Shown: one piece after another, positions 2,795 to 60,340 of the stretch
Numbering within the stretch: the first letter of the stretch is position 1
How the letters are laid out: every line of letters starts with the position of its first letter
Origin: Puniceicoccaceae bacterium K14
GTDB taxonomy: Bacteria > Verrucomicrobiota > Verrucomicrobiia > Opitutales > Opitutaceae
Assembly (NCBI GenBank): GCA_022538095.1
Contig: JAKYXN010000023.1
Coordinates: forward strand, 1-64,000
Length of the DNA stretch: 64,000 bases
Direction of reading: 5' to 3'
Made by a program: the position numbers and the translations under genes
The notes under the pieces: generated by a model
What the model was told of the DNA's origin: nothing
What the model saw: the letters and a program-made list of their open reading frames with translations, nothing else
Databases searched by the model: none

Positions 2795-3672
2795 CCGACT
2801 GAGGTATTCATTCTTGCGTTTTCAAATTCTTCCTCTGCTATTTGCTTTAAGAGTAATGCGTCTTGCCAGCGGTCTGAAAGCTCGGTTGCTTCGCCCGAAT
2901 TGTTTTGAAAGGTTTGCGCGTAGTGGATTACTGGTGGCAATAATTCAGGGGCGAATATGATAAAATCTCCCTTTTTTGCAGACTTCAGAAAACCTTCGAA
3001 GCAGCGTCTCCAGATTTCCCTAAAGTGAACTATGTATTTAGCGTTTGAGTTTGCAGTGAGTGGCGCTTGGATCGAGCCTGGCGTAGCGATGCGGCCGTGA
3101 ATAAATCTTACTCGCTCTAGGACGGGCTGCATGAACTGGATTTTTGTTTGCCAATCTCCGTAGACCATTTCGTGTCCTGTGTACCAGTGAGAGAAGTCGC
3201 CGTTAAATCGGGTCTCTGGAAAACGAAGCACTGCCTGAACGGTTCGCCAGTTGTCTTGAGTAATTGTGGCTCGATGCGTTTCGACAAATAGGGGGTAGTT
3301 GAGTTTGGTCGAAACGGATATAATTGCCGACAGAAGAGCGTCTATTTCAGCATCAGACTCTATTCCCCAGCCGACGTGAAGTGTGCTCGCAAGAAAGCCC
3401 TTTGACTGATGCTGTTCGATGAGAGGAAGTACTTCCAAAGGGTGGTTTATTCTGCAGCTTCCGGTGAGTTCTAGACCGGCATCCCGAGCGGAATCGATAT
3501 GTCCATCCTGCAATCCGTGGAAGCCTGCTTGATGAATGGTTTCATACCTTTTTGAGAGGGTCTTATCGAATAAGGCACTGCCTTTGGGGAGATCTCTGAG
3601 CGTCCCTGTATTTAGGAATACCTTCAGAGCAGGCGCTTTTGTGGAGGAATCGTTGGTGTTTGGGATGTTCAT
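2752..3672 (-). CDS. TIM-barrel sugar isomerase/epimerase family protein
   Basis: 306 residues, cytoplasmic, of the xylose-isomerase-like TIM-barrel superfamily but more divergent than its neighbours. The N-terminus (KVFLNTGTLRDLPKGSALFDKTL) and the internal YPLFVETHRATITQD (Glu), TRFNGDFSHWYTG (Asp) and VRFIHGRIATPG (His) fit the metal-ligand positions of the fold. The C-terminal 40 residues extend beyond the barrel and overlap the convergent neighbour's coding end (2752-2794). Divergent from the gene starting at 3840 across a 167-bp spacer with no candidate LacI site. The function is not resolved beyond the fold. Confidence 0.75.
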   Translation of the reverse strand: MNIPNTNDSSTKAPALKVFLNTGTLRDLPKGSALFDKTLSKRYETIHQAGFHGLQDGHIDSARDAGLELTGSCRINHPLEVLPLIEQHQSKGFLASTLHVGWGIESDAEIDALLSAIISVSTKLNYPLFVETHRATITQDNWRTVQAVLRFPETRFNGDFSHWYTGHEMVYGDWQTKIQFMQPVLERVRFIHGRIATPGSIQAPLTANSNAKYIVHFREIWRRCFEGFLKSAKKGDFIIFAPELLPPVIHYAQTFQNNSGEATELSDRWQDALLLKQIAEEEFENARMNTSVGYKLTPTSTPTDRT

Positions 3673-53738: not shown

Positions 53739-53845
53739 TATCGTTTATAAAGACGATAAATTAACAATATCGCTAAAAAAGACGATAACAAAATAATATC
53801 GTTGAATTATACGATAAACATGCTTTATCGGTGTATTTATGATGC
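53739..53845 (+). repeat. 29-bp tandem inverted-repeat operator array upstream of satD-like gene
   Basis: Three repeats with identical geometry, TATCGT-N8-ACGATA: 53739-53758, 53768-53787 (TATCGC left arm) and 53797-53816, starting exactly 29 bp apart. A fourth half-site TATCGG at 53826-53831 keeps the phase but its right arm has decayed and overlaps the start codon. Each unit is a 20-bp palindrome with an 8-bp AT-rich core. This spacing places a regulator on nearly the same DNA face every 2.76 turns. The array is 23 bp before the ATG at 53839. Confidence 0.85.
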
Positions 53846-54525
53846 ATGCGGTTGTTTCGGGAGATGTGGTTGCGTTTACCAGTTTGTCGGTAAAACGGAG
53901 AGCGTTTTTGGAGGAACGGTTCTCGATTTTACTTTCGGATTTGAGTGAATCGATGGAGATTTTTGGGCGGGTGGTTCGTGGGGATTTTTTAGAGTTTTAC
54001 GTACCAAGGTCAAGTGATGCCTTGCGGGTTATGTTATTGGTTAAGAGTTTTGTGCGGTCCCAGGAATTCCCTGAAGAGCAGGTCGCAGACAAGCATGTGA
54101 GGTTGCACTTGGAGCATGGGATCCGTTTGGCTTTGGGAATGGGAGCCCTGGAGCGGTTGGATCTTGAAAAGGGGGTTTTGGACGGTGAGGCGATTTATAT
54201 GTCGGGGAGGCTGTTGAATGAGGAAAAAACGCACGACAAGCAGCGGATCACGGTAAAACGGACTTTGTTCTTCAAGTCTTCTGATTCTGCCATGGAAGCG
54301 GAGATAGAGGTGCTGGTGGTTTTACTAGATGAGATCTTGAAGCGAACGACAGGTAAGCAGTCCGAGGTGCTTTATCATCGTTTGATGGGTAAAGACGAGA
54401 AAGATATCGCCGCCGAGCTAGGAAAGAGCCAATCTACAATTAATCAACATACGACTCAGGCTGGTTGGTCTGCAATTGAGTGTGCGGTGAATCGTTTCGA
54501 AACCCTTGTGTCCAAACTCTCTTGA
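53839..54525 (+). CDS. SatD-like regulator with helix-turn-helix C-terminus
   Basis: 228 residues. The N-terminal 150 residues resemble SatD-family and, more distantly, class III nucleotide-cyclase-like folds: VVSGDVVAFTSLSV, GRVVRGDFLEFYVPRSSDALRVMLLVKSF, GIRLALGMGALERLD and DGEAIYMSGRLLNEE. The catalytic metal-binding Asp pair typical of cyclases is not clear. The C-terminal 70 residues contain LMGKDEKDIAAELGKSQSTINQHTTQAG, a helix-turn-helix like that of sigma-region-4/LuxR-type regulators. The protein is thus a candidate DNA-binding regulator of the repeat array directly upstream. It overlaps the next gene by one base (TGATG). Confidence 0.75.
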   Translation: MMHAVVSGDVVAFTSLSVKRRAFLEERFSILLSDLSESMEIFGRVVRGDFLEFYVPRSSDALRVMLLVKSFVRSQEFPEEQVADKHVRLHLEHGIRLALGMGALERLDLEKGVLDGEAIYMSGRLLNEEKTHDKQRITVKRTLFFKSSDSAMEAEIEVLVVLLDEILKRTTGKQSEVLYHRLMGKDEKDIAAELGKSQSTINQHTTQAGWSAIECAVNRFETLVSKLS

Positions 54526-55241
54526 TGTCGAACCTACCTGCTTTTCTTATTATTCAATTGCTAGCTCATGTGGTGAGCGACTTCTATCTGCAGTCGCAGA
54601 AGTGGTCGGATGGGAAAAGTTTGGGTGGGTTTAAATCGCGGTATCTGTATTATCATATTCTGGCTACTTTTGTTTGCTCGTCTTTGTTCGCATTTCGTTT
54701 GGACTGGATTCTGTATGCTTTAGGAATCGCACTCGTTCATCTTATAATCGATGGCGTGAAGAGTATACTGGAAAAGGCGGAGTTACTTGGAGAGTTTCGC
54801 AATTGGTTGTTTTTCGTAGATCAGGGGCTTCATGTAATGACGATTGTTGGAGCCTTGTGTCTATACGGGATATATGGAGGAAGTGTTAGTGCTGATTATT
54901 GGGGAGTGGCTGCGGAGGCATTAGCGATATTGCTAGCGTATTCGCTTTGCCTGAAGCCTGCGAATATAGTGATTAGAGAAACATTGCGGGCCTATAAGAT
55001 TGAAATGCCAGGTGACGATGATACTAGTTTGCCTGGGGCAGGGCGCTTAATCGGAATAGTAGAGCGCTTGCTTGCGTTGACCTTGATCTTGGCCGGTCAG
55101 TTTTCCGCAGTTGGATTCATTTTTGCCGCCAAGTCAATTTTGAGATTTAAAGACGCGGAAGGAGAACGAGCGGAGTACGTTCTAGCAGGGAGTTTGCTGA
55201 GTTTTGGAATTGCAGTGTTGATTGGGATTTTAGCGAAGTAA
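54525..55241 (+). CDS. DUF3307 family membrane protein
   Basis: 238 residues from the ATG at 54525 (TGATG coupling to the SatD-like gene). About six membrane spans start with FLIIQLLAHVVSDFYLQSQKWSDGKSLGGFKSRYLYYHILATFVC, the conserved N-terminal DUF3307 segment with a His-containing helix. Then come LDWILYALGIALVHLIIDGVKSIL (His/Asp), FVDQGLHVMTIVGALCLYGI (Asp-Gln-His) and the C-terminal KSILRFKDAEGERAEYVLAGSLLSFGIAVLIG. The function is unknown; a coupled SatD/DUF3307 pair suggests a membrane-stress response module. Cotranscribed behind the 29-bp operator array. Confidence 0.85.
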   Translation: MSNLPAFLIIQLLAHVVSDFYLQSQKWSDGKSLGGFKSRYLYYHILATFVCSSLFAFRLDWILYALGIALVHLIIDGVKSILEKAELLGEFRNWLFFVDQGLHVMTIVGALCLYGIYGGSVSADYWGVAAEALAILLAYSLCLKPANIVIRETLRAYKIEMPGDDDTSLPGAGRLIGIVERLLALTLILAGQFSAVGFIFAAKSILRFKDAEGERAEYVLAGSLLSFGIAVLIGILAK

Positions 55242-55675: not shown

Positions 55676-58600
55676 ATGAATCCAATTATTATTCAATTAT
55701 TATCTAAGTGTAGGAGCGTAGAAATAAGCTCTGCTTTTCTGCATTTTTTAATGCTCCTGCTGTTAAGTATTGCGGGTACTGCGACTAGCCAGGCGGCTAC
55801 TGCTAGTTCGGTAACTCAACATGGCATTACCTGGACCTTCGACCAAGACTATGAGGTGGGCCAATACGTCAATGGAGATTGGTGGGTTAAGGGACCTATC
55901 ACTTTGACGAGTATCACCCCTGGTTGGGATGGAACGCGAAACGGCACTATGATCAATCCTTCTGTGAATGGTAATCAAGGATTTGATACAAGGATAAAAA
56001 ATAATGGCTATGATCCTTTGCTTAATATTGCTGATGATTTACCATTTTCTGTAGGTGTTAATAGTAGTATTATGTCTTGCATTAGTAAGGTAGATCACGT
56101 TGACCTAAGCCATAAAGACAATCCGCAGATGGATACGATAGCAATTTTGACTGTTCTGTCAGCCGCTCCTGCTAGTGGTTCGTTTCGTCCGCCGTATCAA
56201 GGAAGCGACAAGAGCCACGACTGGAACATAAATAATAGTTGGGATACAAGTTTTTTACAATCAATTCCTCGAGAAGGGCTAAATCATGTTCCTAGCTTGT
56301 TTTCTCTAACTCAAAGGTACGAAAAACCATGGATTGAGTTGAAGACCAACTGGGCGGGTAGACGGATGCATCCAGATTCAAATTATCCATCTGGAAAAGA
56401 GGGAAATTATGGGCGAGGCATTGGAGATAAAATCGTAGAAGCATTCCTTTCTTTGCAACTGGACTATACCGAACAAGAGAAGGAGTTGCTCTTGATTCGT
56501 TTATGCCAAGCAGGAATTGATGTTTACGGTGCAGCTCGTTTAGGAGCTAAATGGGTTGACGATGGTGGTCATAATCTTGGAAGAAAAATGCCTTTGCTTT
56601 TAGCTGCCAAGGTTTTTGACGACTCTGATATGTTGGAATTATGCGACGGTAGTCGTGGTAACAATGATCCTCAGCAAAAAGTTTTTCAAGAAGATAGACA
56701 GACCTTTTATGTCAGCCAAGATGATATAAACCTAACTAGATACACGGGTGATGATAGGCCAAGAGATCCTTATACAACAGCCCATTTGGGTCTTGCGGAA
56801 TGGGGAGAAAAACACACAAGCGACCCTACAAGAGATGGCAGTAATTGGAATGCTTACTATCGTGGCGTTAATGGGCCTGCTTATGTTGGCTTTGCCTTAA
56901 TTGCTCGTTTCATGGATCTTGAGAATGATTGGAACTGGCCTGCATTTTTCGATTATGCAGACCGCTATTATTCTGAGGAGATTGGGAATGCTTGGAATAA
57001 AGTTAATGAAATTAGACTGTTTACAGCAGAGATGTGGGACGTCTATGAAAATGGTGTAACCACTACTGCGGCTGCTCCAACGTTTACCCCCGAAGGCGGG
57101 GCTTATGAAGCATCTCAAAGTGTAACCCTTTCTACAACTACATCTGGGGCAAGTATTCGTTACACGCTTGATGGCTCGGAACCAACATCTACTACGGGAA
57201 CGGCTTACACAGGAGCTATTGCGATTAGTGAGGATACAACGCTAAAAGCGATCGCTTATAATTCGGATCCGAGTGTTTACGACAGTTTAGTATCCGAGGC
57301 TTCCTATTATTTTACACCTCCTGGGTATGAAGTTTTAACCGACAACGGACTTTTTCAGAACTTCGATTTTGTTTCTCAGGATGGAGAGTTTGCAGCTACA
57401 TTTAATGCAACGCCTAATGGGGAACAGATCGATGCTGTTATCGGTTTGTCTGCGCATGAAGCCAATGCGTATTCGGATCTCGCTGCAATCGTCCGCTTCA
57501 GCACTGCTGGTTTTATTGAAGCAAGAGATGGCGATGATTATGTTAGTCTTGATGGGGTACCTTATGTGGACGGGAACACGTATGACTTCCGTTTAGAAAT
57601 CGATATTTTAGCTGGTACTTACTCTGCGTTTGTTACGCCCGAGGGTGGAAGTGAAAAGATCATTGGTTTGGACTATGCGTTCCGCAGTGAGCAAAGTGGC
57701 GTTACCGAATTGGCTAACTGGGGAGCAGTTTTATTACCAGCTCCAGGTGTTGAATCTGTATTTGTGGGTGATTTCGCTATTAGTGTTGATTCTACTGATA
57801 CATCTAGTCCAAGTGTGCCTAGTGGCCTGATCTCGCAAAATGTGACAGACAGTAGTGTAGAACTTGTTTGGTCTGCGTCCACTGATAATCTCGCTGTTAC
57901 TGGATATAATATCTTCAAGGATGGCGTATTGTATGAGAGTATAAATGGAACGAGCATTGTTGTTAGTGCCCTCTCAGATGCAACTAGCTATGCATTTTCA
58001 GTAAGCGCTTATGATGCGGCTGGAAATGAATCTGTTGTTAGTTCGGAGATCACCGTGCTTACTAATACGAGCGCTGGAACATCGTTTGTCATTGGTGAAG
58101 ACTTTTCTGCTGGAGCTTCCAATTTTACTGTGGTTGGCAGTGGCACTTGGTCTGTGGAAAACGGTCGATATATTTTGAGTGACCCCAATACGACTAACGT
58201 TTTGGGGGTTCTTGGAAACATGAGTATCCATAATTTAGAGCTAGCAAATGATTACAAGGTAGAAGCGACTCTACGCTTGGTTGAAAGTGGTAGTTTTTGG
58301 AATGATGCGGCTCTGATCTTTGAGTATCAAGATTCCGCTAACTATTACTATGCTTCAATTAATGAAAGTAATGACGGTAATACGAAAGGTATATTTCGTG
58401 TAGTTAACGGTTCGGTAGTTGAAATAGTAGATATCTCATCTACGATCATCTCAGAGACTGACTATGATTTAGCCGTTGAGCGGTCTGGTATAGACATAAC
58501 TGTTTCATTGGATGGTATCGTAATTGCGACGACAGCGGATTCTACGTTTGAGGGTGGCCGAGTTGGTTTGGGCACATGGAACGATAGTGCTGAGTTTGAT

Positions 58601-60340
58601 GATCTTACGGTCGAGGATTTAGGTCCAAGAGCAGACGCAACGCCTCCTTCGAATCCAACTGCTTTGGTTGCAATGAATGTGACTACATCTACAGCGGATC
58701 TTAGCTGGAGTGCTTCGACAGATGATGTTTCAGTAGCTGGATACAGGCTCTATGTTGATGGCAGTCCAGGGAGCGTCGGGATTACGGGGACTTCTTTCAT
58801 GATTACAGGTTTATTGCCCGATACTGATTACGAAATTGAAGTTTCTGCATTGGATGCGGCTGGCAATGAGTCTGGAAAAAGCAGTTCGATAACTGTATCG
58901 ACATTGGCAGAAGTGGTTACTCAAACTTTCAATATTGAAGGAAACCATAAGGATGAATCGGTAAAAGAGAATGGCCAAGCAACAGGTGAAACGGGGACAT
59001 ATCTAAGAATCGGTGGCGGCTACAATCCAGAGGATAGTGCTGGCGTTTATTTATTCCAATTACCTACAATTAATTCGAGTGATGTGGTTAGTTCAGCAAA
59101 CTTGTCTTTCAAACTAACCCGTAATTCAAATCCTCCAGTAGGAAATGCTGATGTTTATGGACTCCCATACAGAGGATCCAATCAAGTTCTCGGCTCTGAT
59201 TTTTATTCAGGGTCTTATGGCGGAGATGCAAACGCAACTGCTCTGCAAGACGATATCCTAGTTTCTAGTAGCCCGCTCGGTTGGTATTTCACTGATCCAG
59301 TAGGAGATGCAAATCTAGCTACTTATCTAAATCAACAAATTGCAAATGGCGCTTCTACAGGAGACTGGATCGCTATACGTATGAATAGCGACCATGTTGG
59401 TGAAGGTAATTATAAAATGTATGGAGTAGCATCAGGGGTCTCTTCAGATAAGCCTGTTCTTACAATAGAAGTGAATGGAGAGGTACTTGACGTTACAGCC
59501 CCAAGTGTACCAGTAAACTTACAGTCTTCCGAAATCGGACGATATGAGATTAGTTTGGATTGGGATGAGTCTACTGATGATACTGGCGTTGGTGGTTATC
59601 GAATCTACGTTGATAATGAGGATCCAATTCAAACGGTGGATACATACATTACACTCGAAGATCTAGACTCTGATACTGCCTACAGTGTTTCTGTGTCAGC
59701 TATAGATGAAGCAGGGAATGAGTCAGCAACAAGTAATTCTATTATAGTTACTACGGAAGTAGAATTCATAGTCGAAAATGAAACACTTGTGGGTGATGAT
59801 GATGACATTGACTTATTGGAAAATGGAAGCGTCACTAGGCATGGTCAAACTTCGCTTCGCATCGGAGGAGGTCACAATCCTAATGATAGCAATGCAGTTC
59901 TATACTTCGAGTTGCCTGAGCTAAGTAGTGGGGCAGAAATTACAGATGCGAGTCTCTTATTTGAGATAAAATCTGTTGGAGGTGTGGTAGGTAATGCCGA
60001 TTTGTATGGAATCCCTTACATGAGCTCGGCCTCCATCCCTACCTCGTACTTCTACTCTGGCGTCTTTGATGGTGATGTGAATGCAATTGGTCTTGAGGAT
60101 GATATATTGACTCCTGCTAGTCCGGCTGGAGCGTATGTCACAAGTTCTGCTGGCAGTGCTAATTTGGTTGATTTCTTAAATGCTCAATACGCTGCTGGAG
60201 CAGAAGGCGGCGATTGGATTGCTATCAGATTAGGAAGTGATCATGCGAACGAAGGGAATTACAAATTCTATGAAATCTACTCAGGTGAGTCTTCGTACGC
60301 TCCAGAAATCGAAATAGAGATTTCGACTCCAAACGAATAG
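55676..60340 (+). CDS. 1554-residue secreted modular protein with unknown N-terminal domain
   Basis: Signal peptide (residues 20-42, FLHFLMLLLLSIAGTATSQA). Residues 45-460 contain an unrecognised domain (ITWTFDQDYEVGQYVNGDWWVKGP, AILTVLSAAPASGSFRPPYQG, WAGRRMHPDSNY, GWKWVDDGGHNLGRKMPLLLA-type). Around 462-545 is a chitobiase C-terminal domain (PTFTPEGGAYEASQSVTLSTTTSGASIRYTLDGSEPT). Around 552-705 is a jelly-roll-like domain, 711-800 FN3, 803-985 a concanavalin/DUF1080-like domain, 989-1080 FN3, 1081-1273 a DNRLRE/CBM96-like module, 1274-1365 FN3 and 1365-1554 a second DNRLRE-like module. All modules suggest polysaccharide binding. The N-terminal domain is probably catalytic (toroidal, with a conserved DDGGHNLGRK segment), but I cannot name a family. 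Confidence 0.78.
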   Translation: MNPIIIQLLSKCRSVEISSAFLHFLMLLLLSIAGTATSQAATASSVTQHGITWTFDQDYEVGQYVNGDWWVKGPITLTSITPGWDGTRNGTMINPSVNGNQGFDTRIKNNGYDPLLNIADDLPFSVGVNSSIMSCISKVDHVDLSHKDNPQMDTIAILTVLSAAPASGSFRPPYQGSDKSHDWNINNSWDTSFLQSIPREGLNHVPSLFSLTQRYEKPWIELKTNWAGRRMHPDSNYPSGKEGNYGRGIGDKIVEAFLSLQLDYTEQEKELLLIRLCQAGIDVYGAARLGAKWVDDGGHNLGRKMPLLLAAKVFDDSDMLELCDGSRGNNDPQQKVFQEDRQTFYVSQDDINLTRYTGDDRPRDPYTTAHLGLAEWGEKHTSDPTRDGSNWNAYYRGVNGPAYVGFALIARFMDLENDWNWPAFFDYADRYYSEEIGNAWNKVNEIRLFTAEMWDVYENGVTTTAAAPTFTPEGGAYEASQSVTLSTTTSGASIRYTLDGSEPTSTTGTAYTGAIAISEDTTLKAIAYNSDPSVYDSLVSEASYYFTPPGYEVLTDNGLFQNFDFVSQDGEFAATFNATPNGEQIDAVIGLSAHEANAYSDLAAIVRFSTAGFIEARDGDDYVSLDGVPYVDGNTYDFRLEIDILAGTYSAFVTPEGGSEKIIGLDYAFRSEQSGVTELANWGAVLLPAPGVESVFVGDFAISVDSTDTSSPSVPSGLISQNVTDSSVELVWSASTDNLAVTGYNIFKDGVLYESINGTSIVVSALSDATSYAFSVSAYDAAGNESVVSSEITVLTNTSAGTSFVIGEDFSAGASNFTVVGSGTWSVENGRYILSDPNTTNVLGVLGNMSIHNLELANDYKVEATLRLVESGSFWNDAALIFEYQDSANYYYASINESNDGNTKGIFRVVNGSVVEIVDISSTIISETDYDLAVERSGIDITVSLDGIVIATTADSTFEGGRVGLGTWNDSAEFDDLTVEDLGPRADATPPSNPTALVAMNVTTSTADLSWSASTDDVSVAGYRLYVDGSPGSVGITGTSFMITGLLPDTDYEIEVSALDAAGNESGKSSSITVSTLAEVVTQTFNIEGNHKDESVKENGQATGETGTYLRIGGGYNPEDSAGVYLFQLPTINSSDVVSSANLSFKLTRNSNPPVGNADVYGLPYRGSNQVLGSDFYSGSYGGDANATALQDDILVSSSPLGWYFTDPVGDANLATYLNQQIANGASTGDWIAIRMNSDHVGEGNYKMYGVASGVSSDKPVLTIEVNGEVLDVTAPSVPVNLQSSEIGRYEISLDWDESTDDTGVGGYRIYVDNEDPIQTVDTYITLEDLDSDTAYSVSVSAIDEAGNESATSNSIIVTTEVEFIVENETLVGDDDDIDLLENGSVTRHGQTSLRIGGGHNPNDSNAVLYFELPELSSGAEITDASLLFEIKSVGGVVGNADLYGIPYMSSASIPTSYFYSGVFDGDVNAIGLEDDILTPASPAGAYVTSSAGSANLVDFLNAQYAAGAEGGDWIAIRLGSDHANEGNYKFYEIYSGESSYAPEIEIEISTPNE

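Follow-up and report, generated by a model that had tools for sequence, protein, structure and literature searches.

Gene content of the locus

The 64,000-nucleotide stretch of Puniceicoccaceae bacterium K14 DNA analysed here (the window) carries on its plus strand a satD-like gene (53839 to 54525; 228 aa), directly followed by a gene for a DUF3307 membrane protein with several hydrophobic segments (54525 to 55241; 238 aa). The stop codon of the first gene and the ATG of the second overlap by one base (TGATG). The satD-like product combines an N-terminal cyclase-like domain with a helix-turn-helix (HTH) of the sigma-70-region-4/LuxR-like type near its C-terminus (approximately residues 172-208), and its partner belongs to the DUF3307 family (PF11750) with 75.3 bits against a curated cut-off of 23. 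Both the terminal HTH and the coupling of the two genes behind a repeat array had been recognized in the initial annotation of this DNA and are confirmed here. Downstream of the pair, positions 55676 to 60340 encode a 1554-aa protein with fn3 and chitobiase C-terminal-like domains.

The designation SatD-like, which also goes back to that annotation, is valid at the level of profiles only. The window protein gave no match to Pfam SatD (PF16264) at E ≤ 1 and stays below the curated cut-off, which the haloarchaeal, Fusobacterium and Agrobacterium partners exceed. In hhalign comparisons, the profile of the window clade (A1) aligned over the full length with that of bona fide SatD (A8), covering 187 columns with a probability of 92.6% and an E-value of 4.5e-7; A1 against the profile A6 reached 99.1%, and A6 against A8 99.3%. 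Apart from the missing direct Pfam match, the window pair resembles SatD (PF16264) and its DUF3307 (PF11750) neighbour in having the same two Asp motifs and the same gene adjacency. SatD itself is named only by annotation, as 'secretion and acid tolerance' (PMC10326533). The stress-type role initially suggested for the module is conjectural.

Tandem palindromes upstream of the satD-like gene

Three palindromic sites of 20 bp each, which have no strand, precede the satD-like gene. Sites 1 (53739 to 53758) and 3 (53797 to 53816) read exactly TATCGT-N8-ACGATA, as originally described, while site 2 (53768 to 53787) begins with TATCGC, so that only five of its six arm pairs match. The described spacing is exact, with starts at 53739, 53768 and 53797 and steps of 29 and 29 bp. 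The supposed fourth, decayed unit lies in phase and consists of a single forward half-site, TATCGG, on the plus strand (53826 to 53831), which follows site 3 at the same 29-bp step and starts 13 bp ahead of the ATG at 53839. Between site 3, the last complete palindrome, and the ATG there are 22 bp. Relative to the ATG, half-sites TATCG and CGATA thus alternate at -100, -85, -71, -56, -42, -27 and -13, in steps of alternately 15 and 14 bp.

The self-match score of the array at lag 29 was 29.5, with p = 1/301 against 300 dinucleotide shuffles, each scored at its best lag between 14 and 60. Elsewhere in the 64 kb, none of 1674 windows of 152 bp had its best lag at 28 or 29 with a score of at least 14.9. 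Given the shuffles and the rest of the 64 kb, it is very unlikely that the array arose by chance. No second array of the motif was found in the whole genome, where TATCG-N10-CGATA recurs only as single sites; the sole other exact copy of TATCGT-N8-ACGATA lies inside a coding ORF and was rejected as an array. A CRISPR was likewise rejected, the 28/29-bp units being contiguous and without spacers. A clear sigma-70 promoter was not found at the window array, which counts against its reading as an operator.

Conservation of the period in related genomes

The closest homologue of the satD-like protein, 68% identical and encoded in a Pelagicoccus MAG (L054), has a TATCG array that matches the window array in phase and in distance from the ATG, with the terminal half-site again at -13, even though no DUF3307 gene follows its satD-like gene. 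The satD-like gene and array of L054/L063 occupy positions 249-935, and the DUF3307 gene of that genome is unlinked, lacks an array and stands beside an apparent riboflavin-synthase-like gene. The orphan DUF3307 gene of genome G665 has neither an array nor an adjoining satD. TATGC-N10-GCATA sites repeating every 29 bp precede the gene of a 44% identical homologue, and three 29-bp units of yet another sequence that of a 34% identical one. Within the window clade the spacing is thus conserved and the letters are variable. The TATCG motif is absent from homologous loci beyond the closest relative, and the arrays were revealed by a search for the period, not for the motif. Conservation at homologous loci, which had been proposed as a check, therefore extends to the 28/29-bp period and, in the closest relative only, to the letters. 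The absence of TATCGT-N8-ACGATA from homologues, initially put forward as evidence against an operator, would mislead, since conservation concerns the spacing rather than the letters.

We surveyed 40 SatD-like/DUF3307 loci from Verrucomicrobiota, Bacteroidota, Proteobacteria, Fusobacteriota and haloarchaea, testing at each locus both the segment upstream of the satD-like gene and the gap between the genes over 47 lags, with significance at p ≤ 0.01. A significant tandem period was present in 31 segments, 27 of them at 28/29 bp (19 at 29 and 8 at 28) and one further at 58, that is 2 x 29; these counts come from interrelated loci sampled non-randomly, with segments defined after the pattern had been seen. 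Among 1376 control windows from the same loci, 34 reached a score of 14.9 and three of these had a lag of 28/29. Significant 28/29-bp arrays occurred in 27 of the 40 loci, upstream in 12, in the gap in 15 and in both segments in none. Thirteen loci had no significant 28/29 period; the period was seen by eye or with weaker significance in L028, L034, L039, L054, L055, L057, L083 and L084, and no convincing array was found in L026, L060, L078 and L089.

Half-sites mostly differ among the loci (TATCG, TATGC, GTTCG, TTAGCC, GTAAC, TCAACC, GCAAGC, ATCACCC and others). The number of units ranges from two to seven, the maximum occurring in L038, so the notion of a fixed three-site operator does not carry over. 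In upstream-type loci the genes mostly abut or overlap, as in the window, and in gap-type loci they are 47-211 bp apart, a difference that is partly built in, as an array needs room. In both layouts the array stands 5' of the unit encoding DUF3307. Scoring of upstream segments only had left most Verrucomicrobiota pairs without an array, and the whole-locus control scan placed theirs between the genes. A tree, poorly resolved at depth, was made before the gap arrays were found. In other Verrucomicrobiota, short DUF3307 proteins (approximately 130-190 aa; L041-L053) occur without an obvious SatD-like partner.

Plasmid-borne pairs were found in Bacteroidota, Vibrionaceae, Pseudoalteromonas, Sphingomonas, Agrobacterium, Enterobacteriaceae and haloarchaea, together with one contig from a viral collection (L093), the only relative detected among the viral contigs searched; the phage records searched held none. 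Upstream of satD, most of these copies carry palindromes in tandem, spaced by 28 or 29 bp and with half-sites of their own. The period is 28 in Pseudoalteromonas, Sphingomonas, Agrobacterium and Vibrio, the last with three TTAGCC/GGCTAA units, and 29 in Enterobacter and L093. Haloarchaeal sites read GTTCG-N10-CGAAC, where 20 bp and a 9-bp linker again add up to 29 and the half-site spacing of 15/14/15 equals the geometry of the window; these arrays stop approximately 2 bp short of the ATG. At L085 and L093, a -35-like TTGACT or TTGACA, part of a promoter-like pair ending in TAGTAT, falls within the last half-site; such an overlap, as in a repressor site, is suggestive only, as promoter calls of this kind occur near chance frequency.

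The cyclase-like domain

A profile of 18 diverse SatD-like proteins matched class III nucleotidyl cyclases over approximately residues 4-116, the structures being 3mr7 (E = 2.3e-4), Ma1120 (4wp8) and CyaC (1wc0); the match is weak and distant, and the profile of the window clade alone gave no match. D9 and D49 (the latter in G48-D49) are invariant across the 18 relatives and their motifs align with the cyclase Asp motifs, so that the two aspartates would fit the metal-binding positions. In the region of the catalytic Asn, SatD-like proteins differ from class III cyclases. An AlphaFold2 model from two sequences reached a pLDDT of 38, too low to be of use. Because the N-domain resembles class III cyclases and keeps the two aspartates, control of the SatD-like protein by a nucleotide is possible.

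Proposed regulation of the pair

We propose, with a probability of about 0.7, that the array serves the SatD-like/DUF3307 module as a multi-site operator and is bound by the C-terminal HTH of the SatD-like protein. Conserved phased sites, as expected of an operator, were found at homologous promoters. As first suggested, the array is very probably a cooperative operator of the pair, supported by the one-base gene overlap, the terminal HTH and the recurrence of the phased-palindrome geometry at homologous loci, and the 28/29-bp array would very probably represent a conserved multi-site switch for a membrane-protein module. One protomer of the SatD-like protein would sit on each half-site, and neighbouring protomers would cooperate, covering and repressing the promoter and start region. 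With alternating half-sites every 14-15 bp, each protomer would have one partner inside the palindrome and another across the linker, and a regulator with two such alternating two-fold contacts could form a continuous row. The near-equal 14/15-bp alternation suggests such a row, which may also be the reason why the period is kept while the letters change. Changing letters with a constant period would fit a regulator and its site drifting together.

In the window, an array before satD would render the operon autoregulated, as had been proposed; in about half of the loci with an array, it lies only ahead of DUF3307 and would control that gene directly. A gap-only array leaves satD itself outside its control, which counts against autoregulation as a constant feature. 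The constant output of the module would be expression of DUF3307, and the inducer may plausibly be a ligand, or a nucleotide, that binds to the cyclase-like N-domain. In a wider reading, which is speculative and less likely than not, SatD-like proteins would be nucleotide-gated, DNA-coating regulators that polymerise through cyclase-like and HTH contacts along the 14-15-bp half-site lattice; a nucleotide that is bound or turned over at the cyclase-like interface would release them, the DUF3307 effector would be expressed, and the pair would constitute a widespread mobile signalling or defence module.

The dyads might instead act in RNA, as tandem hairpins in the leader or intergenic region that govern how the DUF3307 message is translated or how stable it is. 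Several gap arrays do have GC-rich arms that would form good hairpins (GCAACC..GGTTGC, ATCACCC..GGGTGAT), one Vibrio unit scores as terminator-like, and the window leader folds better than shuffled sequences (z = -2.6). Its predicted fold, however, pairs arms of different units and does not form one hairpin per site, no Rfam family matched above its threshold, and hairpins do not require unrelated sequences to keep their dyads at a fixed 28/29 bp. Moreover, leaderless transcripts are usual in haloarchaea, precisely where the arrays end just before the ATG. We thus regard control by RNA hairpins as unlikely.

The link between the SatD-like protein and the DNA rests on adjacency and the HTH, and a global regulator or another host factor could bind the array in its place. 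A single HTH would also have to tolerate both half-sites where one gap holds two sub-arrays, as in L027, L031 and L036 (for example GCAAGC with GCAACC, or with TATCGG), which counts against a single-HTH binder. Such another binder is nevertheless improbable: the half-site varies by lineage while the period is constant, satD-like is the only DNA-binding gene seen at all loci, and the window motif forms an array nowhere else in its genome.

An array, a DNA-binding protein and a membrane protein would also make up the parts list of a centromere-like or anchoring system, in which the SatD-like protein would cover the array and DUF3307 would tether the DNA to the membrane, positioning a plasmid or chromosome region. 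The presence of the module on many plasmids, including one of 3.77 kb in Klebsiella on which it forms most of the cargo, agrees with this. The copies in Verrucomicrobiota draft genomes appear, as far as can be judged, to be chromosomal, the array is placed as a promoter of DUF3307 would be, and L054 retains it without a following DUF3307 gene; we consider an anchoring role highly doubtful. Non-functional tandem duplication or chance, to which the near-identical units of L038 and L030 would correspond if recently duplicated, has next to no likelihood, as the period is common to unrelated sequences next to this gene pair in both bacteria and archaea, far above the control windows.

Relation to known systems and mobile copies

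Lambda CI and the phage 434 repressor are cooperative repressors on tandem operators, and the window array is likewise a series of tandem palindromes beside a regulator gene, overlapping the presumed promoter and the start region. SatD arrays differ in their strict 28/29-bp period, their near-equal alternating half-sites, their two to seven units and a geometry that is kept across bacteria and archaea while the half-site letters change. Multi-site operators are of a known kind; our search of open-licence papers on SatD/DUF3307, the array and cyclase-HTH operators returned nothing relevant, and the 28/29-bp SatD/DUF3307 half-site lattice was not found there. An uncharacterised pair that is widespread in bacteria, archaea and plasmids thereby gains a testable regulator, target and geometry. 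The geometry of the putative operator has been kept across very long evolutionary distances with the letters left free, and searches for sequence motifs miss such arrays because geometry, not letters, is conserved. If the cyclase-like domain gates binding, nucleotide signalling would be linked to a membrane effector via a DNA lattice.

Pycsar anti-phage systems consist of two genes, for a cyclase-like protein and a membrane protein, and often reside on mobile elements. The SatD/DUF3307 pair has the same two kinds of product, with the difference that its cyclase-like protein carries a DNA-binding domain; to our knowledge, DUF3307 is not a known Pycsar effector. PADLOC models gave only weak, unconvincing matches, those of the window protein being confined to the HTH region. 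On a Sphingomonas insulae plasmid (L082, 1983-4072) the pair is next to a gene that carries a Pycsar effector annotation, with ImmA/IrrE and HTH genes near, suggesting a defence-rich neighbourhood.

The Klebsiella plasmid pRJKP36-7 (L091, 1096-2773; 3770 bp) is a tiny mobilizable plasmid with the pair as its main cargo, and records from Klebsiella and E. coli include further 3770-bp plasmids with the same DUF3307 match. The Enterobacter pair as query gave no match in E. coli genomes. In Salinivibrio costicola (L086, approximately 3205-3260) a second 28-bp array, of TTAGCC/AGCTAA, lies downstream of DUF3307. In L093 the array and the start of a satD-like gene occur twice, at approximately 1810-1960 and 2350-2500, some 500-600 bp apart, as a local duplication.
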